From assembly GCF_027594825.1 (NCBI RefSeq), contig NZ_CP088930.1, forward strand, positions 620,001 to 684,000: a stretch of 64,000 nucleotides of DNA, given 5' to 3'. Positions 31,396 through 33,538 of this stretch are shown one piece after another. Under the pieces are notes generated by a model. That model did no database searches, had not been told where the DNA came from, and saw nothing but the letters and a program-made list of their open reading frames with translations. A program made the position numbers and the translations under genes. Source of the DNA: Serratia liquefaciens (lineage in GTDB: Bacteria; Pseudomonadota; Gammaproteobacteria; Enterobacterales; Enterobacteriaceae). How positions within the stretch are numbered: position 1 is the stretch's first letter; each line of letters opens with the position of its first letter.

Positions 31396-31926
31396 ATGTT
31401 GCAATTCTTTAACCGCTGCTCACAGGGGCGCGGTGCTTGGCTGTTGATGGCCCTGACTGCGCTGGCGCTGGAATTAGTCGCACTCTACTTTCAGCACGTA
31501 ATGCTGCTGCAACCCTGTGTCATGTGCATTTATGAACGCTGCGCGCTGTTTGGCATTCTGGGCGCCTCACTGCTGGGTGCCATTGCGCCGAAAACGCCGC
31601 TGCGTTATGCCGCTATTGCGCTGTGGATTTACAGTGCCTGGGAAGGCCTGCAGCTGGCGTGGAAACACACCATGATCCAACTGCATCCCTCGCCGTTTAA
31701 TACCTGCGATTTCTTTGTTAGCTTTCCGTCCTGGCTGCCGCTGGATAAATGGCTGCCAGCGGTGTTCCACGCATCAGGTGACTGTTCGGTACGCCAATGG
31801 GAATTCTTGACGCTGGAAATGCCGCAGTGGCTGGTTGGCATCTTCGCGGCTTATTTGTTGATTGCTATCGTTGTGCTGCTCGCACAATTTGTCCGCCCAC
31901 GCCGCCGCGATCTGTTTGGTCGCTGA
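31396..31926 (+). CDS. dsbB: Disulfide bond formation protein B
   Basis: 176-residue four-helix inner-membrane quinone reductase that reoxidises periplasmic DsbA. Both redox pairs are present: Cys41/Cys44 in [11 protein letters not shown] and Cys104/Cys130 in the second periplasmic loop (NTCDFF and SGDCSVR). The ATG for MLQFFNRC is preferred; the longer frame begins in the intergenic region. It stands 124 bp after nhaB and has a strong terminator. Confidence 0.96.
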
Positions 31927-31940
31927 GCATGACAGCATGA

Positions 31941-31967
31941 AAAACGGCGCCTCAGGGCGCCGTTTTT
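31941..31967 (+). terminator. dsbB terminator
   Basis: ACGGCGCC/GGCGCCGT stem flanked by AAAA and TTTTT. It can work on both strands and would also stop the minus-strand 23-codon frame. Confidence 0.88.
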
Positions 31968-32004
31968 CATGGAATCGCTTATGATCTTCAGAGGTAATGC
32001 GAGA

Positions 32005-32300: not shown

Positions 32301-32318
32301 CGATGCATTATTGCATCG
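32301..32318. repeat. Perfect inverted repeat upstream of the ArcZ-like RNA
   Basis: CGATGCA and TGCATCG arms around TTAT. It is centred about 52 bp before the predicted start of the small RNA, where a regulator could act. It has no T-tract. Confidence 0.5.
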
Positions 32319-32361
32319 ATATTTTGATGAAGTTTTATCAGAGAATCCCTATAATATCCGC

Positions 32362-32430
32362 AAGTTAATATTTAACGATTTCCCTGGTGTTGTTGTGTGT
32401 CTTGCCCCTCATCTTTGCAGGGGCTTTTTT
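32362..32430 (+). ncRNA. Putative small RNA with an ArcZ-type seed
   Basis: A consensus -10 TATAAT (32350-32355) is followed by a short transcript ending in a strong terminator: GCCCCT/AGGGGC stem at 32404-32424, then six T residues. At 32377-32392 the RNA reads GATTTCCCTGGTGTTG, which by memory equals the conserved target-pairing core of ArcZ, the Hfq-dependent activator of rpoS. From that core to the end is 54 nt, close to the processed ArcZ (about 56 nt). The known arcZ lies near arcB, not between dsbB and ycgN, so this would be a second member of the family. The -35 is weak. Confidence 0.68.
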
Positions 32431-32432
32431 CC

Positions 32433-32879
32433 TTATCTCGCCCAGCTCGGTTTGTTCAGGATGTGATCCTGCCAGTCCACCACTTCACTTTCCCGCACCG
32501 CAATATGTCGTACCGTAATACGCTCCCCGTGCATCGCAGCTTTAGAACCGCTGACCAGCGGATGCCAGGCAAACAACGGCTTGCCCTCACCGATCAAACG
32601 GTATGCGCAGGTCGGCGGCAGCCAATCAAAGGTCGTGAGGTTTTCACGCGTCAGTTTGATGCAGTCCTCTTCCAGCTCAAAGCGACGCTCATAGTTGCGG
32701 CACTGGCACGACTTAATATTCAGCTGGTTACAGGCTACGTTGGTGAAATAAATCTCGTCGGTATCTTCGTCGATCAGCTTATTCAGACAGCATTGCCCAC
32801 AACCGTCGCACAGCGATTCCCACTCTTGTTCTGACATTTCAGCCAGCGATTTTTGTTGCCAAAAAGGGGTTTGTGACAT
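32433..32879 (-). CDS. ycgN: YcgN family cysteine-cluster protein (UPF0260)
   Basis: 148-residue cytoplasmic protein of the YkgJ-like metal-cluster family, function unknown. It has conserved cysteines in [12 protein letters not shown] (about residues 24-32), then NVACNQL and CQCRNYERR, and a later PTCAYRL, a pattern suited to binding zinc or an iron cluster. The [15 protein letters not shown] region is well conserved in enterobacteria. Its position beside ycgM and ycgL matches E. coli. Its stop is three bases from the end of the small RNA terminator on the other strand. Confidence 0.92.
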
Positions 32880-33289: not shown

Positions 33290-33538
33290 ATGTTTGGGAA
33301 AGCAGAAGATAAAGTCAATGAAGCTGCCGGCGCCGTCGAAGAAGCCTTTGGTAAGGCGACGGATTCACCGGATCATCAAGTCAAAGGCGCGGCCCGTAAA
33401 TATGCCTCTCAGGCCAGCTATGCGGCCAGAGATGCTGCCGATACGGTGCGAACTCAGGTTGAATCCAACCCGCTTGCCGGCGTAGCTATCGCCGCCGCCG
33501 TGGGGATTGTTTTCGGTTTCTTGCTGGGCCGTAAATAA
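33290..33538 (+). CDS. ElaB/YqjD-like (DUF883/CsbD-type) membrane protein
   Basis: 82-residue protein. An amphipathic, Ala- and charge-rich N-terminal half (FGKAEDKVNEAAGAVEEAFG), like CsbD and DUF883 proteins, is followed by one C-terminal transmembrane helix (PLAGVAIAAAVGIVFGFLLG) ending in RK. Such C-tail-anchored proteins (ElaB, YqjD, YgaM) bind ribosomes or protect membranes in stationary phase in E. coli. AAGGAG is six bases before the ATG chosen here. Its own terminator follows. Confidence 0.82.
   Translation: MFGKAEDKVNEAAGAVEEAFGKATDSPDHQVKGAARKYASQASYAARDAADTVRTQVESNPLAGVAIAAAVGIVFGFLLGRK

Follow-up and report, generated by a model that had tools for sequence, protein, structure and literature searches.

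A Probable Small RNA Gene Downstream of dsbB in Serratia with the Pairing Core of ArcZ, Its Sibling Copies, and a Candidate Sponge

Introduction

Sibling sRNAs, sRNAs from mRNA 3' ends, and sponges are known kinds of RNA regulator: OmrA/OmrB and the Qrr RNAs are siblings that have one seed and separate promoters, and SroC is a sponge of an sRNA. ArcZ, in the 2024 review of it (PMC11331407), is described as one sRNA, repressed through ArcAB when oxygen is low in most of the bacteria that have been studied; the strings "paralog", "duplicat" and "second copy" do not occur in that review. The E. coli MG1655 record places arcZ beside arcB. The literature on ArcZ and on Serratia sRNAs, covered as titles and abstract openings with few subscription papers or bioRxiv preprints, yielded no report of further sRNA copies of the ArcZ seed, none of a Serratia small RNA linked with ycgN, and none of a combination of siblings, a 3'-end sRNA and a sponge around the seed of another hub sRNA.

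The DNA analysed here, called the window, is a stretch of 64,000 nt of Serratia liquefaciens (G000:C1:620001-684000) from a genome of 5.35 Mb. A sequence-only reading of the window had proposed a second ArcZ-like small RNA between dsbB and ycgN, which we refer to as type A. We hold with good confidence that 32362..32430 encodes a trans-acting, probably Hfq-bound sRNA of a Serratia-centred family defined by a 23-nt pairing block, which would act by seed pairing and would itself be paired by a partner RNA, acting as a sponge or, less likely, as a target.

Results

Elements of the Type A Locus

On the plus strand of the window, dsbB (31399..31926; NCBIfam PRK01749, 302.6 bits) is followed by a terminator-like hairpin (31940..31968) that was read by eye and is absent from the scanner output. 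A weak -35-like TTGATG (32324..32329) lies 20 nt ahead of a directly readable -10 hexamer, TATAAT (32350..32355), and the primary transcript of ~69 nt, with a predicted start, would run from 32362 to 32430. The RNA contains the conserved block CGATTTCCCTGGTGTTGTTGTGTGTC (32376..32401) and, inside it, the 16-mer GATTTCCCTGGTGTTG (32377..32392), which is the pairing core of E. coli ArcZ. The intrinsic terminator (32404..32430) has the arms GCCCC (32404-32408) and GGGGC (32420-32424) and ends in six T residues (32425-32430), two nucleotides short of ycgN (32433..32879, minus strand; NCBIfam PRK05170, 308.2 bits), the convergent downstream neighbour. The -10 hexamer, the 16-mer and the terminator are all where the sequence-only reading had put them, and its distance of 54 nt from the core to the RNA end (32377 to 32430) is also right. 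Among ORFs of at least 60 amino acids, a single one touches the interval, antisense to ycgN, and a coding ORF at type A was ruled out from the ORF list. The 16-mer has one exact copy in the window, and two further matches have three mismatches.

The poor -35 hexamer and its spacing mean that an activator is possible for type A. A consensus promoter scanner found no plus-strand promoter at this site. The pattern scanner for terminators did not report the type A terminator and listed another hairpin, at 32301-32318; its rule is for loops of 3-8, and the type A loop is 11, partly paired in the fold. The interval folds at -18.0 as compared with a shuffle mean of -10.6 (z -3.07), and 2 of 200 shuffles were as good. 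GA/TTT at the start of the block agrees with RN/WUU, a degenerate consensus for RNase E that is quoted for ArcZ (PMC11331407). Type A is probably not part of the dsbB 3' UTR because a terminator-like hairpin follows dsbB; origin as a dsbB 3' UTR product was rejected on that hairpin and on the gap of about 400-450 nt before type A.

Conservation of Type A

When 60 relatives were searched at the DNA level, 28 had a match, 26 of them in the same genus (of 29 genomes, own included); the other two (G049 and G055) matched over 29-31 bases only, outside the core. Type A is present in 25 of the 29 same-genus genomes. It was not found in G020, which has the other copy only (see below), or in G006, G009 and G017, which are 1.5-2.5 Mb in size and have no copy. 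DsbB was located upstream by tblastn at 25/25 loci, and YcgN was located downstream within 1.6 kb at 23, lying less than 100 nt away in nine and farther in 14. Conservation had been proposed as a check by the sequence-only reading, and the block is indeed kept 3' of dsbB at every one of the 25 loci, with ycgN found at 23.

Over the 25 aligned loci, invariant positions amount to 25/26 in the block, 18/29 in the terminator, 14/30 in the -35/-10 stretch (32327-32356) and 8/19 in the 5' part, and fall to 3/26 and 1/49 further upstream and 0/13 downstream; one block base departs, in the type A copy of G025. The -10 hexamer reads TATAGT at 22 loci, TATAAT at two, and TATACT at one. Chance does not account for the match to the 16-mer, given that 25 genomes conserve the block and not its flanks. 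A conserved non-coding block and an intrinsic terminator on the same strand are both present, and on the sequence evidence type A is very probably a real sRNA gene.

Relation to ArcZ and Other Known RNAs

The annotated arcZ of E. coli MG1655 contains the identical 16-mer (16/16), as the sequence-only reading had stated. Over the whole genome, the ArcZ covariance model (RF00081, cut-off 66 bits) finds one copy, which is beside arcB and scores 86.9 bits; at type A there is no match to the model even at E 10. Type A is not ArcZ itself, and a moved ArcZ was excluded because ArcZ sits at arcB. The 16-mer of the resident Serratia ArcZ has one change (AATTTCC...). ArcZ was found in 29 of 30 genus genomes, in 27 above the cut-off, and the one genome without it is 1.5 Mb in size. 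The ArcZ core reads AATTTCCCTGGTGTTGGCGCAATATT in 26 of the 29 ArcZ sequences (L001, L149-L176), where type A has GATTTCCC; the remaining three (L174-L176) come from genomes of 1.9-3.6 Mb.

Type A resembles ArcZ in the 16-nt core, identical to that of E. coli ArcZ, and in the distance from core to 3' end, 54 nt against 56 nt for processed ArcZ (PMC11331407). It differs in having no covariance match, no arcB neighbour and a shorter 5' part, and in the absence of both the GGCGCA...CGCGCACCCC segment and the ArcZ terminator. That the flanks and terminator are unlike ArcZ had been noted at the outset: the core is followed by TTGTGTGTC and a different hairpin. Only the seed is common to type A and ArcZ, and the tail of type A is RprA-like.

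At type A, and in the type B and type C RNAs (described below) of the loci searched, no Rfam family scored as high as its cut-off. A very weak match to Hrs13 (RF02631) covers 32361-32431, but its 14.5 bits are far below the cut-off of 52, and it was taken as chance. The sole Rfam family above cut-off in the window is the KDPG-aldolase RNA (RF03115; 46845-46924, minus strand; 71.3 bits). Outside the window, a weak second match to the ArcZ model, of 28-29 bits, occurs in three Serratia genomes (L177 1563, at G019:C15:117429-117529; G001:C2:309406-309508; G011:C12:458243-458345); L177 carries TTTCCTGGTGTTGGCGC and a GGGGTC end, and is possibly a decayed ArcZ duplicate.

Sibling Copies of the Block

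The block common to the family is 23 nt long and consists of the ArcZ seed TTTCCCTGGTGTTG followed by TTGTGTGTC, the latter part being absent from ArcZ. In every one of the 25 type A genomes the block occurs a second time, as type B in 11 and as type C in 14. These second copies are exact except for one base in the type B of G001; the sole block copy of G020 departs more. Type A is one of a family because a type B copy lies in the same genome (G000:C1:1283043-1283070) and type B or C copies lie in relatives. The idea of a second ArcZ-like sRNA thus stands in part: what is supported is an sRNA gene that is conserved, is distinct from arcZ and has the ArcZ core, different flanks and its own -10, but it is accompanied by further copies, and what they share is a 23-nt block, longer than the ArcZ core. 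Allowing one mismatch, the 16-mer has four sites in the own genome: type A, type B, ArcZ, and L007, the last of which we read as the complement on the other strand. A fourth sRNA at L007/L115 was accordingly rejected, since on the other strand the sequence is the complement of the seed and lies within the 3' UTR of a PEP_hydrolase gene.

Type B lies 3' of the same MFS gene (MFS_1, 85.7 bits) at 16/16 loci examined, among which are a plasmid copy of Serratia proteamaculans and, from three other genera, four loci. Between the end of the matched MFS frame and the CCCTGG of type B there are 31-101 nt, and the gene beyond differs in G138. By its sequence, this layout is that of a predicted mRNA 3'-end sRNA. 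At the 14 type C loci, a TATAAT lies shortly ahead of a very short RNA. The terminators of the three types are unlike each other, with the T tract on the same side. The terminator alignments used 19 of 41 distinct sequences; each contains one pair with changes on both sides and pairing kept, and the outermost pair is broken in 2/12 A/C-type and 1/7 B sequences. Beyond ycgN, the window encodes a small protein (33290-33538, plus strand) whose match to ElaB is weak and under the cut-off (25.4 bits), and by eye a similar short frame is also found 3' of type B in G068 and G138.

With up to two mismatches, the block occurs in 12 of 392 family genomes, representing five genera. Type A-like RNAs in G129 and G385 (genus g102) and in G083 have similar upstream sequence, and no DsbB was found within 1.5 kb of them; three CRISPR-DR4 repeats (L062 97-244) lie ~1.3 kb from that of G385. 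A plasmid-borne element was considered and rejected: matches came from two plasmid records, each covering at most 25% of the query, and there was no E. coli match. One of the plasmid matches, exact over 28 nt, is a type B copy, and the other is a chance match.

A Partner RNA with Two Complementary Sites

A search for seed complements led to an intergenic region of the same genome (G000:C1:2726476-2726801; site at 2726582) with two sites, GACACACAGCAACAC (site 1) and ACACCAGGGAAA (site 2), that are 50 nt apart and followed by a terminator. Of 30 genus genomes, 27 have this partner RNA. Apart from the own genome, all 26 were detected by DNA similarity to the own-genome region and not by pairing; the genomes in which it was not found are the three small ones. 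Sites 1 and 2 are kept and the sequence between them has diverged; the stretch 5' of site 1 is conserved too. In 30 site-1 sequences (27 obtained by similarity, and three by a pattern that fixes the pairing), 14 of 15 positions always pair with GUGUUGUUGUGUGUC, and the outermost base is unpaired in six. Three columns among the 14 vary, and the sole changes in them are C/U facing G or A/G facing U.

Pairing was predicted by energy, without accessibility. The type A duplex has -26.5 kcal/mol at site 1 and -33.0 kcal/mol at site 2, with 0/300 shuffles as good at either site, and that of ArcZ has -12.9 kcal/mol at site 1 (22/300 shuffles as good) and -25.5 at site 2 (0/300), but these shuffles are no independent test because the windows were chosen after the sites had been seen. 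Judging from sequence, we infer that site 1 fits the A/B/C family only and that site 2 fits ArcZ too. The sites need overlapping parts of the sRNA, and one partner molecule could therefore hold two sRNAs.

The two-site pattern, which was written from Serratia, is found in 9 of 392 family genomes, and all nine are among the 12 with the sRNA block; the block-bearing genomes without it are G129, G385 and G138. The co-occurrence of sRNA and partner, in three genera, is partly due to shared descent. A promoter scan of the partner RNA found none, and an Rfam search of the region gave no family at cut-off.

The partner RNA is divergent from a gene with a BetR domain (117.6 bits) and a receiver domain that scores below threshold (29.3 bits, cut-off 30.2), which adjoins genes for a histidine kinase, with a receiver-like end by eye, and for a molybdopterin-binding-like protein. 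In G020, G025 and G028 (L257, L252 and L253), these genes separate the partner RNA from a type C copy 3.7-3.8 kb away. No such sRNA lies on the far side of the genes in G000, G003, G068 and G083, which are the other four of the seven regions compared, and at 12 of the 14 type C loci a search of the surrounding 2 kb did not find the molybdopterin-like protein. A comparison of the BetR/receiver protein with viral_contigs found no relative.

Candidate Targets and Other Complementary Sites

The sequence-only reading had proposed that type A has the targets of ArcZ, rpoS among them. For the duplex with the rpoS leader, shuffles were as good in 110/300 cases for type A, 81/300 for type B, 48/300 for type C and 37/300 for the resident ArcZ; the control, the E. 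coli ArcZ-rpoS pair that is proven (PMC11331407), gave 150/300 and 96/300. A comparison that the proven pair does not pass carries no weight for or against rpoS as a target. For an lrhA-like (hexS-like) leader, the values were 77/200 for type A, 91/200 for type C and 50/200 for ArcZ, with an E. coli ArcZ-rpoS control that was also no better than shuffles.

A genome-wide scan for the seed complement (up to two mismatches) returned 46 matches, as opposed to four for the reversed pattern; the excess may reflect codon usage because many matches are inside or antisense to coding frames. Among the 30 of 46 that were inspected, those with loci, three are sRNA genes. Sites before an MFS-type symporter (L137) and before a gene after an IclR-like frame (L117, named by eye) fit ArcZ better than type A. 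A further site, CACACAACACCAGGGAAAC at L115 1501-1515 (G000:C1:2736556-2736570), lies in the 3' UTR of the PEP_hydrolase gene, directly before a terminator. The L115 region has full-length similarity in 5 of 30 genus genomes (own included) and a shorter match in G012, and in another genome of the same species the terminator alone matches. Its complement ACACCAGGGAAA is intact in three of six sequences read and changed in three, and the site is possibly a second decoy, patchy in the genus.

Discussion

The conservation of type A, its copies, their terminators and its distinctness from ArcZ are established in the genome sequences themselves. The T tract bears on which strand is functional. Were it the minus strand, a ycgN read-through RNA carrying the seed complement could titrate ArcZ, since the complement of the core would pair with it; ycgN converges on the site, and the minus strand also folds below its shuffles (z -2.29). 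However, the T tract and the -10 are on the plus strand at the 25 type A loci, ycgN is within 100 nt at just nine of them, and in types B and C, which are at unrelated places, core and T tract have this same polarity, all of which makes a functional minus strand highly improbable. A different descent, in which type A would be a paralogue of RprA that has diverged, has acquired or retained an ArcZ-like seed and acts via its RprA-like tail, draws on a weak match over the full RprA model (RF00034; 26.4 bits, E 0.52) and on the TTGYTGTGTGT...TTGCCC near the terminator that is common to both. That score is far below the cut-off of 70, though, a true RprA lies elsewhere (82.3 bits), and the 5' part is different by eye; we consider such a descent unlikely, if somewhat less so than a functional minus strand. 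The reading that we prefer is that type A is a plus-strand sRNA of the A/B/C family. Like OmrA/OmrB and the Qrr RNAs, this family has several loci, one pairing block and different control. It departs from them in that a separate hub sRNA has its seed too and in that one of its sources is the 3' end of an mRNA.

The partner RNA has conserved complementarity to the sRNA and, as in SroC-type sponges, complementary sites and its own terminator, with the differences that sponging is a prediction here and that the two sites cover different halves of the block. Alternatively, it may be an mRNA or leader under regulation, with the sRNAs controlling its translation: 29 of 30 sequences have an ORF of 11-14 codons that opens 16 nt ahead of the CAYAC of site 1 and overlaps that site. 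Yet no Shine-Dalgarno sequence was seen by eye, the ORF is broken in G020 and varies in length between clades, a terminator follows, and no larger conserved ORF was noticed. A role as mRNA is a minority possibility, though one to be taken seriously, and the likeliest role suggested by these features is that of a sponge of the A/B/C family.

Type A would be transcribed from its own promoter after dsbB, from 32362 to 32430, type C also from its own promoter, and type B from the 3' end of the MFS transporter mRNA. Hfq would bind type A at the U tract, and either the primary transcript or a form cut by RNase E at the start of the seed would pair via the seed with mRNAs, whose sites may include those of the ArcZ type; ArcZ-like regulation would thereby be open to signals other than oxygen. 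The partner RNA would pair with the family at its two sites and sequester it as a sponge, or less probably be its target. A wider proposal, which we put forward tentatively and think doubtful as a whole, is that Serratia and near relatives have a second layer on the ArcZ seed: two extra sRNAs per genome (A plus B or C), whose sources would be an independent promoter, the MFS mRNA 3' end or, in certain species, a locus beside the BetR/receiver and histidine-kinase system, would reuse the seed on ArcZ targets, the sponge, divergent from the BetR/receiver gene, would selectively withdraw them via the half-site that is absent from ArcZ, and this two-component system would set the amount of non-ArcZ signal reaching the ArcZ regulon.

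If Serratia does have two further sRNAs with the ArcZ seed, then the effects of deleting arcZ in this genus could be masked, and ArcZ-like regulation would have inputs besides oxygen. The half-site that separates the family from ArcZ would then offer a natural test of how cells distinguish sRNAs that have the same seed.
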